This document shows positions 3,143 through 58,924 of a DNA stretch of 64,000 nt, piece by piece. Origin of the DNA: Cyclina sinensis (taxonomy: Eukaryota; Mollusca; Bivalvia; Venerida; Veneridae); contig JAAONU010000019.1 in NCBI GenBank assembly GCA_012932295.1, forward strand, positions 32,713,913 to 32,777,912. Direction: 5' to 3'. The first letter of the stretch is position 1. Each line of letters starts with the position of its first letter. A model generated the notes under the pieces. That model was given only the letters and a program-made list of their open reading frames with translations. It did not search any database and was not told where the DNA came from. A program made the position numbers and the translations under genes.

Positions 3143-3248
3143 GTTGGGAACTACTTAAGAATGTTTAGAGGGTCACTTTATAAAAGATTTCCATCAATGT
3201 GGAGAAGACTGATTACAGTTGATGAGAGAAAGAAACTTGCACAGATAG
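3143..3248 (+). CDS. SMARCB1: SMARCB1 exon 2
   Basis: SMARCB1 is an obligate core subunit of the SWI/SNF (BAF/PBAF) chromatin-remodelling complexes in the nucleus. This 106-nt exon encodes [20 protein letters not shown] followed by [15 protein letters not shown], nearly identical to the human winged-helix region after the first-exon boundary. The acceptor is TCTACAG before 3143 and the donor is GTAAAT at 3249. Phase enters at 0 and leaves with one base of a codon. It is 33 nt shorter than the human exon as I recall it, because the family's variable KKTKPN-type stretch at the exon end is missing; in vertebrates that stretch is itself alternatively spliced. Confidence 0.95.
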
Positions 3249-3761
3249 GTAAATATACAAATTACAAATTAAATACATGTATTGTTGTTTGCTGATTGCA
3301 TTTCATGCAGTTCAGTATTTCTCAGGCAACAATCAGCTTAAACTTAAAGATAATCATCTTTTGTCTTCCTGTCTGCCAGACTGTCATAAACAGAAGTACA
3401 GAAAGACACAATAGTAAAAAAACTAACTTTTTGAAGTTTGTGCCATAATAAAAACTAAGTCATAGTTTGAAGCTGTAGTAATCTAATTTAGAATCATTGT
3501 TTACCTGAATATCACATTTGACAGAAAGCCAATTTCTATTTCTATCTGCAGATAATGTAACTATATACATGTATATTATTAAAAATGTATACATTTGAAC
3601 ATCAAGATACAAAAAATGCCTCAGTAGTTTTGCATAAACATTAGATATTGATGTTATATATATCAGACTGAACTGACTAGAGTTAAATGAAACCTTTAAA
3701 AAAGAAAAAAGCTTCAGTTAAGGTTTTAGATTTTATTTGATTACACTGGTTTTATCTGCAG
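3249..3761 (+). other. SMARCB1: SMARCB1 intron 2
   Basis: A 513-nt AT-rich intron with donor GTAAAT and acceptor TTTATCTGCAG. I see no repeats or RNA genes in it. It is the only intron here apart from the 58-nt one that is free of recognisable transposons. Confidence 0.8.
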
Positions 3762-3891
3762 CGGGCTTTGGTCAGCAGTCATTAGCTACAAACATCTCAT
3801 TACTAAAAGCATCAGAGGTGGATGACATCATAGAAGGTGGAGGTGACAAGTATAAAGAAGTGGGTTTTGCAACTGAACCAGTCATTAAAAG
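3762..3891 (+). CDS. SMARCB1: SMARCB1 exon 3a (first of two alternative exons)
   Basis: A 130-nt exon, the same length I recall for vertebrate SMARCB1 exon 3. It encodes AGFGQQSLATNISLLKASEV then DDIIEGGGDKYKEVGFATEP and VIKR, matching the human LLKASEVEEIL / KYKAVSISTEP region at the C-terminal side of the winged-helix domain and the linker to repeat 1. It starts with two bases of a codon and ends with two (130 = 2 + 42x3 + 2). The acceptor is TTTATCTGCAG, the donor GTACAAAG. A second copy of the same exon follows after 58 nt. Both copies are open with mainly conservative differences, so neither looks decayed. Confidence 0.93.
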
Positions 3892-3949
3892 GTACAAAGT
3901 CATAATTACGTTAGTCTTCACTAATCAATTCAATGATTTTAACTTTCAG
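3892..3949 (+). other. SMARCB1: 58-nt intron between exons 3a and 3b
   Basis: Starts GTACAAAG and ends TTTTAACTTTCAG. A branch-point-like CTAAT lies at 3921-3925, about 24 nt before the acceptor and only about 30 nt after the exon 3a donor. That spacing is short enough that steric hindrance could block splicing of 3a to 3b, a known mechanism for mutually exclusive exons. Confidence 0.7.
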
Positions 3950-4079
3950 CTGGATTTGGTCAACATTCATTGTCAACCAGCATAACATTACTGAAAGCTA
4001 CTGAAGTTGATGACATTATTGAAAATGGTGGAAATAAGTACAAAGATGTTGGGGTATCAAGCGAACTTGTGTACAAAAG
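3950..4079 (+). CDS. SMARCB1: SMARCB1 exon 3b (second of two alternative exons)
   Basis: A second 130-nt exon with the same entry and exit phases as exon 3a. It encodes AGFGQHSLSTSITLLKATEV then DDIIENGGNKYKDVGVSSEL and VYKR. It matches exon 3a at 31 of 44 residues; most changes are conservative (A/S, S/T, E/D), the largest being F to V, P to L and I to Y near the exon end. The acceptor is AACTTTCAG and the donor GTAGAT at 4080. Joining 3a to 3b shifts the frame and meets TGA at 4002-4004. Joining exon 2 directly to exon 4 meets TAG at 10435-10437. Only single inclusion keeps SMARCB1 open. Confidence 0.92.
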
Positions 4080-5215
4080 GTAGATCACATGTTGTGATGC
4101 ATGAGCTTGTTTACAGATTGTACATTCTGCAAAGAATGTATATATTTTGCATGCTCTGTAGTTATTGTGACATGTTGACATATATTGTTGACTGCTAGCA
4201 CTATGGCTATTGTTGTGCTTCCAACATTATTCCCTAGCTTTACAGGAGATTGCTTATCTTTTTGTTTAGGGACAGTTTGGTGCTTATTTGATTTTGTAAC
4301 TAAGGGGTTTCATTACCTTAAAAATATTAGATTTTAAAGACTAAATATTGAGGACTATTGGGCTAACAGCAGGGTAGTTAAAATTTTGCATACACAACAC
4401 TTTCACAAGCTGGTTCATCTTGTATCCTAAGCAGGGTTCTAAAAATTTCTTTGAAATTGAGTTGTCGAGAACAACTGACTGTGGCAAAATAGAGTTTTCC
4501 CAAAAACAAAGTCAGATGTCCGAGTGATAAGTATAACGTTTTCGATAAGCATTGTTAGTTAATTGGGCTTTTTGTTTTACAAAGTCAATTTAAAGAAGAA
4601 TTAGAAACACTTTAAAATGAAAGATTCTTTCATAGATCTTTAAAAAATACCCAAAACTTCTCAACAGAAATTGAGTTCACTTAAAAAGACTATGACAGAC
4701 AGCAAATATGTGGATTGATTGTTATTCAACTTATTGTTTTAAACTAATGTACTTCTGGAATCAAAATTTTGTGACTTTTTAGTGGAATGTCTGGTTACCT
4801 AGGAGATCTGTTTCCAGAATCACTAAAATTTTATGTGAACAATTTACAAAATTTTTAAGATGTAAAGTGTGTTGATTCATTCTAATTGTTGCATTCAAAA
4901 GTAAATATGACAGAAATATTCAAGTCTTAGAGCAAAGGAACATTTTTCATTGAAAAAGAAAAAACTGGTACTTATAATAAAATCATGACCACTTACCTTA
5001 ATCAGTCAAGTTATATGTTGTAAGTTTGCCTCGTAAAAAAAGTCTCCAAGACACTGTTTTCTATAAATAATAAAATACGACAGGGTTGTGGAAATATATG
5101 ACATAAGGAATTTATCCGAGATTTTCACTCACTGCTTCATGTTTAATGAAATAAATATTTGCTAGAATTGGTTGCCTTCATTTTGTTAAGCTTGTCTTAA
5201 ATCTACTTATATAAA
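4080..5215 (+). other. Start of SMARCB1 intron 3, no recognised feature
   Basis: AT-rich intronic sequence with no long ORF and no repeat family that I can match elsewhere in the window. Confidence 0.5.
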
Positions 5216-10340: not shown

Positions 10341-10372
10341 GATGTTTTTATGTATTTCATGCACTGTTTTAG

Positions 10373-10510
10373 AGGTGAGTCAAAACAGAAGCGCTCAACA
10401 TGGGTACCAACAGTTCCGAGCACATCACATCATTTAGATGCAGTACCATGCTCTACACCCATTAATAGAAACAGACTTGGGAAACCGAAAGTTCGCACAT
10501 TCCCTTTATG
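10373..10510 (+). CDS. SMARCB1: SMARCB1 exon 4
   Basis: A 138-nt exon, matching the length I recall for vertebrate exon 4. It encodes GESKQKRSTWVPTVPSTSHH followed by LDAVPCSTPINRNRLGKPKV and RTFPL, the highly conserved linker of SMARCB1 between the winged-helix region and repeat 1. Acceptor CACTGTTTTAG, donor GTAAGA at 10511. The first base completes the AGA arginine begun by either exon 3; the last two bases TG are completed to cysteine by exon 5. Confidence 0.95.
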
Positions 10511-11364: not shown

Positions 11365-12871
11365 CTGACGGAAAAATATAACTGTGCACACTAAAATACT
11401 TAATATCTTTTATTAGGTATAAAATTATTTTAGCAGATTTCTTTTGTGTAATTCACAAGGTAATCTTGTTTCAATAATACTGCTTTTCGCGAGTTGCACG
11501 TGCAAAATTTATAGCCCGTAACGGTCGCGCTTTTTACGTGTTTCTTTATGTTAACATCCTCGTACATGCTGTTTCGAGTTATTTTAACCGTCAAATTATA
11601 GTGAGCTACCCAGCAGTTCAGAAAAACACCTTAATTTGGATTTTAATCTTTGAAGACAATGCCACGCATCTCAGAAAATGATCGCCTACGTGCCGTCGGT
11701 ATGCTCCAAGCAGGCATTCCTCAAAATGCGGTTGCGCAGCGTTTTGGTGTTCACCGAAACACCATATCAGTACTTTGGCGACGATTTCAGCAACGTGGCA
11801 ACGTCCGTGATCTACCACGTCCAGGGCGTCCACGTGTGACGTCAATCCGTCAAGACAATTATATCCGGCTTACACACCTACGGAATCGATTTCAACCGGC
11901 CACATTAACAGCACGAACAATTCCTGGCTTGAGACCTATCAGTGGACGAACTGTTAGAAACCGATTAAGAGAGCACAGCATTACTCCACGACGTCCTGCG
12001 ATACGTCCTACTCTTCTCTTACGTCATCGACAACGTCGACGTCAGTGGTGCAGACAGTATCTAAGGCTTCCAAGAGCATATTGGAATAATGTTCTGTTTA
12101 CTGACGAGTCGCGGTTTCACTTAGAAAGTTCGGACGGACGAGTTCGTGTATACAGGCGTCGCGGAGAACGTTACTTGGATCCCTGTGTTTTTCAACGTCA
12201 ACGTTTTGGTGGTGGTGGGTCGATAATGCTTTTGGGAGGTATCTCATCTCAAGGCAGGACCCAGCTTGTAATTGTCCGTGGCAATTTAACAGGTGTTCGT
12301 TACAGAGATGAGATTGTCATACCCCACGTGCTGCCATTTCTTCAACGTCAAGGGCGTAACATGACGTTTCAACAAGACAACGCTCGGCCACATGTAGCAC
12401 GTGTAGTTACCGGGTTTCTGGCTCAGCAAAACGTGAGTGTCTTACCCTGGCCCGCTGTTTCACCAGATCTTTCACCAATTGAGCACGTTTGGGATGAGAT
12501 GAAGAGACGCCTCCGTCAAAGACGTAACCAACCTCTCACGCTGGACCAACTAGCGCAGACATTGGTCAACATCTGGAACACCATTCCACAGGCAGTTATC
12601 GCCAACTTAGTTGCCTCTATGCCTCGTCGCTGCCGTGCTTGCTTGAACGCCAATGGAGGCCACACACGATACTGACCTTGTGAAATCAGATTTCATACCT
12701 GTCAACTTCTGCGCCTTGTTACTGTAAAAATTGTTTTACATGATGAAGTGTTTGTATTGATTGTTAGAAATAAAACGTTGATTGGCTAATTTGCAAAGTT
12801 TTATGTTACTATTCCTAATATTAAAAAAAATTCTATACCTTGAAGTATGCACAGTTATATTTTTCCGTTAG
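11365..12871 (+). mobile_element. Intact Tc1-like transposon (DD34E)
   Basis: Terminal inverted repeats of 27 bp with two mismatches: CTGACGGAAAAATATAACTG at the left, and the complement of CTAACGGAAAAATATAACTG at the right. Both ends are flanked by TA (TATA on both sides), the expected Tc1/mariner target duplication. It contains one uninterrupted transposase gene and sits inside the family K element, so it arrived later. Confidence 0.9.
11650..12675 (+). CDS. Tc1-type transposase, full length
   Basis: A 341-residue ORF, the usual size for Tc1 transposases, which cut and paste their own element at TA sites. The N-terminus has a paired-like helix-turn-helix (about residues 10-50, with AQRFGVHRNTISVLWRRF), a GRPR motif at 59-62 and a second DNA-binding segment up to about residue 115. 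The catalytic triad is visible: D152 in LFTDES, D243 in FQQDNARPH and E278 in SPDLSPIEHVWDEM, giving exactly 34 residues between the last two (DD34E). The start at 11650 gives MKTMPRIS; the in-frame ATG three codons later is equally plausible. There are no frameshifts or stops, so recent activity is likely. Confidence 0.95.
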   Translation: MKTMPRISENDRLRAVGMLQAGIPQNAVAQRFGVHRNTISVLWRRFQQRGNVRDLPRPGRPRVTSIRQDNYIRLTHLRNRFQPATLTARTIPGLRPISGRTVRNRLREHSITPRRPAIRPTLLLRHRQRRRQWCRQYLRLPRAYWNNVLFTDESRFHLESSDGRVRVYRRRGERYLDPCVFQRQRFGGGGSIMLLGGISSQGRTQLVIVRGNLTGVRYRDEIVIPHVLPFLQRQGRNMTFQQDNARPHVARVVTGFLAQQNVSVLPWPAVSPDLSPIEHVWDEMKRRLRQRRNQPLTLDQLAQTLVNIWNTIPQAVIANLVASMPRRCRACLNANGGHTRY

Positions 12872-28404: not shown

Positions 28405-28532
28405 TTATGATGACTCTGACCCAGCTCAGAACCATGAGAATGCAAACCAACTAGAGAACCTGGTACCAATCCGTCTTGACATGGAGTATGAGGGACAGAA
28501 ACTCAGAGATTGTTTTACATGGAATAAAAATG
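28405..28532 (+). CDS. SMARCB1: SMARCB1 exon 5
   Basis: A 128-nt exon, the length I recall for vertebrate exon 5. It encodes [20 protein letters not shown] then [20 protein letters not shown], the end of the linker and the start of repeat 1 of the SNF5 domain, the region that in the mammalian protein contacts the BAF155 SWIRM domain. Acceptor TTCCTTTTGTAG. The donor GTTGGG at 28533 is a weak match to consensus. The first base completes the cysteine codon begun in exon 4; the last base G is completed to GAG by exon 6. Confidence 0.95.
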
Positions 28533-33299: not shown

Positions 33300-33475
33300 A
33301 GACTTTGATAACCCCAGAGATGTTTGCAGAGATTCTGTGTGATGACCTGGACCTTAACCCAGTGAACTTTGTGTCAGCTATAGCCCAGGTTATAAGGTCT
33401 CAGCTAGAGCAGTACCAAAGTGAACAGCCAGAGCAAGTTGATGAGGCCCCATTTGACCAGAGAGTAATTCTGAAG
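33300..33475 (+). CDS. SMARCB1: SMARCB1 exon 6
   Basis: A 176-nt exon encoding TLITPEMFAEILCDDLDLNP, VNFVSAIAQVIRSQLEQYQS and EQPEQVDEAPFDQRVILK. This completes repeat 1 of the SNF5 domain and the inter-repeat linker. Acceptor TTTTTAACAG, donor GTTAGC at 33476. It is 9 nt longer than the vertebrate exon as I recall it; the extra residues fall in the variable linker between the two repeats, where the human sequence reads YPTDSILEDQ. It ends in phase 0. Confidence 0.95.
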
Positions 33476-54994: not shown

Positions 54995-55103
54995 TTGAAT
55001 ATCCACGTTGGAAATATTTCACTGATGGACCAGTTTGAATGGGATATATCGGAACCCGAGAACAGTCCCGAAGAATTTGCCACTAAGTTATGTGCTGAAC
55101 TTG
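54995..55103 (+). CDS. SMARCB1: SMARCB1 exon 7 (first half of vertebrate exon 7)
   Basis: A 109-nt exon encoding [20 protein letters not shown] and [16 protein letters not shown], the first part of repeat 2 of the SNF5 domain. The equivalent human stretch beginning [10 protein letters not shown] has been described as carrying a masked CRM1-type nuclear export signal. Acceptor CACATGTATTTCAG, donor GTGAGA at 55104. It enters in phase 0 and leaves with one base of a glycine codon. Vertebrates encode this and the next exon as one 191-nt exon as I recall; 109 + 82 = 191 here, so an intron splits it. Confidence 0.95.
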
Positions 55104-55740
55104 GTGAGATATTTATAGACAATTGACTCATCAGAAAAATAAAAACCAATTTATTTTCATATCTGAGAAGTTGAAGCTAATTTTTATGCATAATGTATAT
55201 TGCTTTGATCATGTCTGTTGGTAGACCAAGTAGCTTTAGATGAACACCGTATAATCACTTGAATATTATATGCTAGCATGTGTATAATGCACCTCTGGTC
55301 TGCTCTCTAAATTTCGGAAAAATGCATTGGAATATAATATGCACAAAAATTTTGTCTGGAAATCGAGGTGCCATTTCAAGATTTTTTCATTTTTGGTACA
55401 TGTTACAATTATTTTGCGTGAACATTGCTACAGTTGCATTTACCTATTTATATTTCATTTAGGATAAATGACACCTATTTTGTTGATAATCTTGAAATGG
55501 CAGTGTTGACAATCATGTAGAAGTATTATCTCAATGTTTCAAGACGTTTTGGATGTTTAAACAAACATCTTTTAATTATGGCGACATCAAGCGACACTTA
55601 TTATTGTGTTTAAAAATAATACGAGCGACTCCATTAATCCAAATAATTGATCAGTAATCAAACAAGTGCGAATATTAACCAGTTTAATACTGGTAAGCAT
55701 TGGATACATGATTTCATCAAGTCATATCTACATGGCAATT
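55104..55740 (+). other. Intronic sequence, nothing recognised
   Basis: AT-rich start of the intron between exons 7 and 8, with no repeat matched elsewhere and no convincing ORF. Confidence 0.4.
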
Positions 55741-55766
55741 TTCATTGTATCTTTTGGGACCTTTCT

Positions 55767-55767
55767 C

Positions 55768-55798
<31 letters not shown>

Positions 55799-55805
55799 AA
55801 AAAAA
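55767..55805 (+). repeat. Poly-C run followed by poly-A run
   Basis: About 22 C directly followed by about 17 A. The lengths of such homopolymers are often unreliable in assemblies. Confidence 0.9.
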
Positions 55806-56079
55806 GCACCAAAAACAGGATTATAAAGCCGTATAATACCGTACTTTCAGTACTGATGACACTGCATGGTTCTCTCACCTTAGCAACACTGTCCTCAATG
55901 AAAGTGAACCATAACAGAAAACATGATCATTTCATCCAATATTACTACCCTTTGGCCTGTGTTTTATGGTGTTCACGCTGGAAAAAATGCCTGATGGCCA
56001 ACCCTTGTTTAAAATAGGCACCCTTTTGTAGAAGCTGAAAATTCTTGAAAAAATATTATATTCGAGCAGTTAAGAACAG

Positions 56080-56885
56080 AGACTTGTAGGAAGATTGGGC
56101 ATCTTGTGTAAAAGAAACCTATGGTATGTGGGCTTGCAAAGGTCAAGCTCACAGGGGACTGTAGTTTGAAAATAGTTTTCAGTCAATAACTCAGAAACAG
56201 CTGCTCCCAGGACCTTCAAGCTTTATTGGATGGTTGGGCATGAGTAGATGGCCTCTATTAAAGAACCCATAGAGTCAAATTTTAACTTACAGGGGCCAGC
56301 ATTTGGAAAAAAATTTTTTTTTGGCAGAAACCCATTTATTAGCCTTGTCATAGGCCATCCCCATGGCACCTTACAATATAATCTTACATATGCTAAGACT
56401 AAAAAGAATTACAAAGGCATTTGAATGACAATATACGAAATCATAAATAAAAATTATGGCATATTGTCAAAAATGGGTAGCCTAATTTCCTTTATGTTGA
56501 ACTTAGAGTGACAAAGATATGTACAAATCAAACAATTTTCTAATCAGTTAATTTAGAACAGTTGCTCCAAACAGCTGCATTTCTTCAAACATTATATCAT
56601 GGTTGAGTATGAGGAGTAGATGACCCCTTTGTAGGCCCACAAGGTTATAAAAGTCAAGCTCATAGAGGGCTGCTTTTTGAAAAAAGTTTCTGATCAATTT
56701 CTCAAGAATAACTTCTCCAAGGACTTCAAACTTTACAGGATGGTCAGACGTGATGGATAGATAAACCCTTTGATTTTTTGGGCCCACAGAATCAAAGGTC
56801 AAGCCAATGAAGGCCTGCATTTTGGAAGTGGTTTCAAATAAATTACCAAAGAATATTTGTTCCCAGGACCTTCAAATTAGAGAGT
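56080..56885 (+). repeat. Diverged tandem units (AAGGTCAAGCTCACAGGG type)
   Basis: About four units with CAATAACTCAGAAACAGCTG, GGACCTTCAAGCTTTATTGG and TCAAGCTCACAGGG, distantly related to families C and L. Interrupted at 56320-56530 by AT-rich text. Confidence 0.5.
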
Positions 56886-56889
56886 TTTT

Positions 56890-57465
56890 TATGCCCCTGA
56901 AGGGAGGCATATAGTTTTTTAACTGTCCGTCCGTCAGTCCATCCGTTCGTCCAAAAACTTTAACATTGGCAATAACTTTCTTATTAGTAAGTGGATTTAC
57001 TTCATACTTGGACACAACACCCCTTTGGACAAGACCTTTCCACTGACCTATATTTATTTGACCTTGACCCCTGAATGACCTTTACCTTATAGATCCAATT
57101 GTCCAAAAACTTTAACATTTGCAATAACTTCTTTATTAGTAAGTGGATTTACTTCATACTTGGACACAACACCCCTTTGGACAAGGCCTTTCCACTGACC
57201 TATATTTATTTGACTTTGACCCCTGAATGACTGGTTCTCAGCTCAAAGGTCAAAGCACCACGTTCGGGGGCAAATGGTCTTATGAGTAAATAACTTCCTT
57301 ATGAGTAAATATATTTACTTCATACATGGACACAACACCCCTTTGGACAAGACCTTCCCACTGACCTATATTTATTTGACTTTGACCCCTGAATGACTGG
57401 TTTTCAGCTCAAAGGTCAAAGCACCACGTTCGGGGGCATTGTCATCTTACAGTGACAGTTCTTGA
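56890..57465 (+). mobile_element. Family B element, second copy
   Basis: Starts TATGCCCCTGAAGGGAGGCA. Units as in 47090-47954. An internal arm-like TTCGGGGGCA near 57260 is followed by more units, then the true end TTCGGGGGCA, hairpin TGTCA-TCTTACAG-TGACA and CTTGAT near 57465. The internal arm suggests two elements fused or an internal duplication. Confidence 0.75.
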
Positions 57466-57796
57466 TTTTGGCTGACCTTGCTGACTTGAACTTGGGGATT
57501 TCTAATGTGTGTAAGCGGAGCATCAGTGGATTTCTTACAGTTCTTGTTGAGTAATAAAGTCCCAGAACTTGTTATCTAGACAAGGAAAAGAAATCGCTGA
57601 ATGGGGTTGGAGAAAATCTTTAAAACTGACTTGACTTTATAAAGATGTCCATTCTATAAATAAACTTGAACAACATGAACCACTTTTGCTTTTGTTTGAC
57701 TGTTTATTACTGTTAAAACGAAAGTACCCAGCAAATGCACATTTAAATGATTTGTTGTGTTTACTTGATCTTTGCAATGAAAGTAGCTGCATTTTT

Positions 57797-58606
57797 ATAT
57801 GCCCGTTCAAAGAACGGGACGTTTTATGGGAACGCTAATGGCAGGCGGGTGGTGTCCAGTTTTGTCTGGAGCATTTCTTCAACGTGCATGGATGGATTTT
57901 AATGATACTTGGTACCAATGTTCACCATCATTGGGGGTAGTGTTGCTCGCTTGAACCAGGTCTCTAAGTCTAAGGTCAAGGTCACACTTAGAAGTCAGAG
58001 AAAAACACTTGTCCAGAGCAAAACTTCTAAATACATTGAGGGATTTTAATATAACTTGGCATAAATGTTCAACATTGTTAGAGGGAGTGTTTTGTGCAAA
58101 ATTCAGGTCCCTCTGGTCAAGGTCAAGGTCACACACAGAGGTCAAAAGTCAGATAAAAATATGAAAATGTGAGTATGGACCATTTAGTCATCATGAATCA
58201 AGGGATTCTATCACAAACTTTTGCCATCACGAGTCTGAGCATTACACGCATAATCCTGGTCCATATATGCAAGGTCAAGGTCAGTAAAGATGATGAAATG
58301 TCCAGATTTTGTCCAGAGCATATCTTCTATTTTAGTATTACTTGATACAAAAGTTCACCATCATAAAATGTAGTGTTGCACGCATGAACCAGGTCTCTAG
58401 GTCAAAGGTCAAGGTCACACCTAGAGGTCAGTGGAAAACGTTTGTCCAGAGCAAAACTTCAACATGAATTGAGAGATTTTAACGTAACTTGGCACAAATG
58501 TTGACAATTGTAAGGCTGAGTGTCGCATACAAAATTCAGGTCCCTGTGGCCAAGGTATGGGTCACACATAGACGGGCGTATTTTGTGACAATTGCACCCT
58601 TGTTCA
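57797..58606 (+). mobile_element. Family M Helentron-like element
   Basis: Starts TATGCCCGTTCAAAGAACGG (hairpin). Four ~150-bp units follow (TTAATGATACTTGGTACCAA, AGGTCAAAGGTCAAGGTCAC). It ends with the arm GACGGGCGTA (58573-58582), a hairpin TTGTGACAATTGCACC (weak) and CCTTGTT at about 58600. Confidence 0.6.
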
Positions 58607-58765
58607 TGCATATTTCTGTGAGCACATCATCTTTGAAGATGTTAGCATAATTGGTTAAGCACTGATCAGACTTGGTCATTTTGTTCCCTTGTTAGAAATG
58701 GGGTTGTTGTCAAGGTTTCTCATATTTAATCTGATCGTAAAAATGATAGTGATAGTAAAATATGA

Positions 58766-58924
<159 letters not shown>

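Follow-up and report, generated by a model that had tools for sequence, protein, structure and literature searches.

A tandem-duplicated exon 3 in the SMARCB1 gene of the bivalve Cyclina sinensis, probably spliced in a mutually exclusive manner

Organization of the SMARCB1 Locus

The window, that is, the whole stretch of 64,000 nt of contig JAAONU010000019.1 of Cyclina sinensis that was analyzed, contains on its + strand a SMARCB1/SNF5 gene, represented by six exons common to both forms and by two alternative versions of exon 3. The features are listed below, with positions counted from the first letter of the window.

3143..3248, + strand: SMARCB1 exon 2, 106 nt, common to both forms, with an AG acceptor and a GT donor
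3762..3891, + strand: exon 3A, the first alternative, 130 nt, AGFGQQSLATNISLLKASEVDDIIEGGGDKYKEVGFATEPVIKR
3892..3949, + strand: intron between 3A and 3B, 58 nt, adenines resembling branch points at 3920 and 3924, predicted hairpin (GUUAGU/ACUAAU)
3950..4079, + strand: exon 3B, the second alternative, 130 nt, AGFGQHSLSTSITLLKATEVDDIIENGGNKYKDVGVSSELVYKR, with 31/44 residues identical to 3A
4002..4004, + strand: TGA stop, in frame when 3A is joined to 3B
4098..4103, + strand: UGCAUG, RBFOX-type element, a lead only, 19 nt past 3B, not significant after correction
4148..4153, + strand: second UGCAUG, RBFOX-type element, a lead only, 69 nt past 3B, not significant after correction
10373..10510, + strand: exon 4, 138 nt, common to both forms
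10435..10437, + strand: TAG stop, in frame when both 3A and 3B are skipped
28405..28532, + strand: exon 5, 128 nt, common to both forms
33300..33475, + strand: exon 6, 176 nt, common to both forms, SNF5 repeat 1
54995..55103, + strand: exon 7, 109 nt, common to both forms, SNF5 repeat 2
58776..58857, + strand: exon 8, 82 nt, common to both forms

Probes for both ends of the gene did not find the first and last coding exons in the 64-kb window, and SMARCB1 probably extends beyond both window ends. The two spliced translations (289 aa each) matched the Pfam families INI1_DNA-bd and SNF5 well above the cut-off; the SNF5 domain (PF04855) scored 181 bits, and the N-terminal INI1 winged helix (PF21459) scored 103 and 100 bits for the two forms. 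When a 125-aa part was used to search the PDB, the best matches were SMARCB1 chains. The lengths of exons 3, 4 and 5 are equal to what we take to be those of the human exons (130, 138, and 128 nt). Exons 7 and 8 (54995–58857) sum to 191 nt, which is presumably also the length of the single human exon 7; either a gain here or a loss on the vertebrate side could account for the extra intron between them.

The Two Copies of Exon 3 and the Reading Frame

Exons 3A and 3B have the same length and identical phases, each taking up two bases of a split codon at either end (the last two at its start, the first two at its end). All four splice sites carry AG or GT, and the copies agree at 90/130 bases (69%). 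The first-pass annotation of this DNA had reported two 130-nt exons with the same phases, their own acceptors and donors, and 31/44 identical residues, and all of this was found as described. When 3A was used as a tblastn query against the window, 3B was recovered at E = 4e-18, which excludes a chance likeness, and no third copy of exon 3 appeared in the window at E < 1. At E 0.05, the six remaining exons of the window each matched themselves and showed no neighbouring duplicate, the sole exception being a weak match of exon 8 to exon 6 (E 0.019), which we take as the two SNF5 repeats.

Joining exon 2 to exon 4 through either copy (2-3A-4 or 2-3B-4) leaves the frame open through exon 4. Inclusion of both copies brings the TGA at 4002–4004 into frame, and skipping of both does the same for the TAG at 10435–10437; the two stops and the open single forms had been claimed before and were verified. 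The reading frame is preserved when one copy, and one alone, is included, a property that is common but not universal among mutually exclusive exons.

The frame could be restored with both copies present if they were joined through an internal 3B acceptor at 3981, which would give a longer domain. This site scores 5.0, compared with 5.4 for the 3B acceptor, and 130 + 99 nt ends in the same phase as 130 nt. Nevertheless, we regard such joining as scarcely credible, given that the site lies behind the first AG past the branch region, that 3B retains, over its first 31 nt, both the frame and the opening AGFGQ that it has in common with 3A, and that the product would put 33 extra residues beside a conserved fold.

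As scored with approximate matrices, the acceptor and donor reached 7.1 and 4.2 for 3A and 5.4 and 6.1 for 3B. By the same matrices these values do not depart from the range seen across the gene, with the 3A donor second lowest of eight. An acceptor-like copy, ATTTCTATCTGCAG (3539–3552), was also observed 210 nt upstream of the 3A acceptor (3748–3761). It scores 7.8 vs 7.1, ten of its bases are complementary to the 3A acceptor, and no exon copy was found behind it by tblastn with the 3A query.

Selection on Both Copies and Age of the Duplication

The 40 base differences between 3A and 3B were distributed as 8, 5, and 27 over codon positions 1, 2, and 3. Synonymous differences amounted to 23.5 at 28.5 sites (pS 0.83) and non-synonymous differences to 15.5 at 97.5 sites (pN 0.16); no finite dS was obtained because the synonymous divergence is saturated. 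Simulations were run to 40 differences, and a run was taken to fit when it gave at most 13 amino-acid changes without a stop. None of 400 runs fitted when one copy was unconstrained, and again 0/400 when both were, while 53% fitted when both copies evolved at omega 0.1. The sequence comparison thus shows two intact copies under purifying selection as protein, and the codon-position bias, the saturated synonymous sites and the simulations together indicate that the duplication is old and that both copies have been selected.

The sequences flanking the two copies were also compared. Downstream of the two donors, 15/58 intron bases agree, a level reached by 3468 of 5000 shuffles and thus no higher than chance. 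Upstream of the two acceptors, 28/58 bases agree (8/5000 shuffles), and after removal of the last 20 nt the agreement is 18/38 bases (67/5000 shuffles). Such likeness is what a duplicated unit carrying its own acceptor would be expected to leave. It could also reflect a younger duplication than the saturated sites suggest, or local constraint, and it calls for caution against a firm duplication age. At usual neutral rates, the duplication probably dates back more than 100 million years. As an old duplication, the pair should be common to related species. A pattern search for relatives gave 20 matches in viral_contigs and 63 in genome_contigs, none of them confirmed; an animal gene is not expected in these sets.

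These data bear on the reading that one copy is the working exon 3 and the other a decaying, rarely used exon, a recent duplicate or an assembly artefact. The residual likeness upstream of the acceptors (28/58 bases) and the low score of the 3A donor would fit it. It is contradicted by the base identity of 69% with changes concentrated at third positions, by the lack of a stop in either copy together with the failure of all 400 one-copy-unconstrained simulations, and by the unlike downstream introns (15/58), so that we consider it quite improbable. An assembly artefact or a recent haplotype duplicate, in particular, is ruled out by the base identity, the third-position bias and the saturated synonymous sites.

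Identities to human SMARCB1 numbered 21 for 3A and 20 for 3B, with neither copy clearly nearer, and an ancestral 3A with a derived 3B is unsupported by these counts. Scores of the full forms favour 3A by a small margin (156.2 vs 149.2 bits).

How Exclusion Could Be Brought About

The 58-nt intron had been described as carrying a likely branch point about 30 nt from the upstream donor, and adenines resembling branch points are indeed present at positions 29 and 33 of the intron. The AG that most closely precedes the acceptor lies at position 22, and the adenines that follow this AG and are at least 12 nt from the acceptor are all at or before position 45, which places the candidate branch points, as predicted from sequence, 29–45 nt from the 3A donor. 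Joining of 3A to 3B would be disfavoured because the putative branch point for 3B lies only ∼30 nt from the 3A donor. The steric threshold of ∼50 nt is taken from vertebrates and may not hold for this animal. Since introns of about 58 nt are spliced routinely in some invertebrates, the steric argument carries less weight than it seems to.

The predicted fold of the 58-nt intron was more stable than most shuffles (reached by 2/200 and 11/1000), and it contains a hairpin in which GUUAGU pairs with ACUAAU at the match to the branch site. By contrast, the folds of the last 58 nt before each of the gene's seven other acceptors are unremarkable. The 3B branch point may lie within a small hairpin, which might contribute to the exclusion. 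Against such a role, the branch site needed for splicing of exon 2 to 3B would be hidden too. Exclusion of the RNA docking/selector type was considered and rejected: for the one sequence available, long-range pairing of the 58-nt intron with intron 2 and with the early and late parts of intron 3 was equalled by 103, 35, and 86 of 200 shuffles, respectively, so that no pairing beyond chance was found for these three targets. The fold of the 441-nt cassette is not unusual either (reached by 10/100 shuffles).

Nonsense-mediated decay of transcripts bearing premature stops is well established. Transcripts with both copies or with neither would carry such stops and would be degraded, and the products would be two SMARCB1 proteins that differ at 13 of 44 residues. 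Given nonsense-mediated decay, the frame argument is independent of the mechanism of exclusion. The same early stops, arising from both double inclusion and double skipping, would also suit an output switch, in which these two outcomes are regulated and lower SMARCB1, the choice of isoform being secondary. A poison exon needs no coding constraint, yet both copies are strongly constrained as protein, and we consider a switch of this kind very unlikely.

Mutually exclusive splicing of the tandem-duplicated exon 3, which the first-pass annotation had proposed, is in our view highly probable and offers the best explanation of the pair. It is favoured by the purifying selection, the saturated synonymous sites, the match of both forms to their Pfam families and a predicted branch-point distance that stays under the threshold proposed for OGDH; the steric part of the proposal stands on less firm ground, as set out above. 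We infer that both exons are spliced, never together, and that the resulting proteins differ in function.

Comparison with Known Systems

Mutually exclusive tandem exons are already known, and SMARCB1 is an unexpected gene for such a pair. The closest parallel is with exons 4a and 4b of vertebrate OGDH, also a tandem pair with a short intron and branch points near the upstream donor; in human OGDH, branch points 25–41 nt from the 4a donor enforce exclusivity and a threshold of ∼50 nt was proposed (PMC7969005). OGDH is a different gene, and its branch points were mapped by experiment, whereas those of SMARCB1 are predicted from one sequence. Steric hindrance combined with RNA structure has likewise been proposed for the exon pair 17.1/17.2 of Drosophila Dscam (cited in PMC7969005), but Dscam encodes a cell-surface receptor, and the structural part for SMARCB1 consists of one predicted hairpin. 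Exons 6a and 6e of coq-2 in helminths, annelids, and molluscs are mutually exclusive homologous exons that are conserved in lophotrochozoans and switch protein properties (PMC7434440). That gene encodes a metabolic enzyme rather than a chromatin protein, and its exon pair has RNA-seq support. According to PMC9741552, human mutually exclusive tandem exons are mostly ancient and carry conservative substitutions.

Human SMARCB1, too, varies by splicing next to the wing loop concerned here: isoforms 1 and 2 differ where exon 2 meets exon 3. They arise from an alternative exon 2 donor (± 27 nt) and involve no duplicated exon, and no pronounced functional difference between them is reported (PMC12343709). 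Among the matches listed in a search of titles and abstract openings of the open-licence literature, none described an exon 3 of SMARCB1 that was duplicated or mutually exclusive, and the string 'smarc' is absent from the main texts of PMC9741552, PMC9013439, and PMC9803972, which deal with duplicated exons or clam splicing.

Predicted Effect of the Exchange on the Winged-Helix Domain

By alignment, exon 3 corresponds approximately to human residues 79–120, and by exon boundaries it presumably corresponds to residues 78–121. Starting in the final part of the mobile wing loop, the swapped segment takes in the last strand and last helices of the winged-helix domain and extends into the beginning of the linker. 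Both copies begin with AGFGQ, and the Pfam match to the domain stops at exon position 25–26. The earlier claim that the two forms differ in the C-terminal part of the winged-helix region held for 8 of the 13 residue differences, which fall at exon positions 1–35; the other 5, at positions 36–42, run past the domain into the linker.

A deep mutational scan placed human L90 and L91 among the 13 most intolerant positions (PMC13237135), and the residues aligned to them are the same in both forms. Human E122, Q123, and A125, which are considered in the same paper (PMC13237135), align to the part encoded by exon 4. The winged-helix domain is described as occupying a position distal to the nucleosome in cBAF and a proximal one in PBAF (PMC13237135), and it bound DNA only weakly in vitro (PMC4509781). 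Very probably, the animal makes two forms of the SMARCB1 region that binds DNA in humans. More speculatively, the exchange may tune the DNA contact of the domain or its place in cBAF vs PBAF.

Candidate RBFOX-Type Elements and Possible Significance

Fourteen patterns were scanned in six regions (84 cells), and the best p was 0.0025. This value belongs to the two UGCAUG elements in the 150-nt flank after 3B (at 19 and 69 nt); it is uncorrected, and significance was lost after correction. The + strand holds 31 UGCAUG in 64 kb. RBFOX proteins commonly favour the exon upstream of UGCAUG sites, and, speculatively, the RBFOX-type sites after 3B might favour 3B in excitable tissue. When both strands were counted, the window was found to contain 50 UGCAUG (31 on the gene strand and 19 on the other), a number reached by 5/100 shuffles.

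SMARCB1 is a core, tumour-suppressing subunit that is usually treated as one protein. If there are two selected winged-helix ends, an animal lineage would be seen to diversify SWI/SNF through splicing of the core and not through swaps of paralogous subunits, and the pair would supply natural variants, kept by selection, of a domain whose role has yet to be settled. The fullest version of this idea would be a very old, lineage-wide splice switch between two interchangeable SMARCB1 winged-helix ends, with RBFOX promoting the use of 3B in nerve and muscle, diversifying BAF and PBAF through a core subunit usually taken as invariant, in place of vertebrate-style subunit paralogues; as a whole it must be called doubtful.

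Other Features of the Locus

The window gave zero Rfam matches at the gathering score. At the start of exon 4 (10367–10380), AGGTGAGT stands right after the acceptor and resembles a recursive splice site (AG|GTGAGT). The + strand of the window carries this 8-mer 3 times, and use of the site would shift the frame. Intron 4 contains an intact ORF of 341 aa (11650–12675, + strand) with DDE_3 and a Tc3-type helix-turn-helix, that is, a Tc1/mariner-like transposase.
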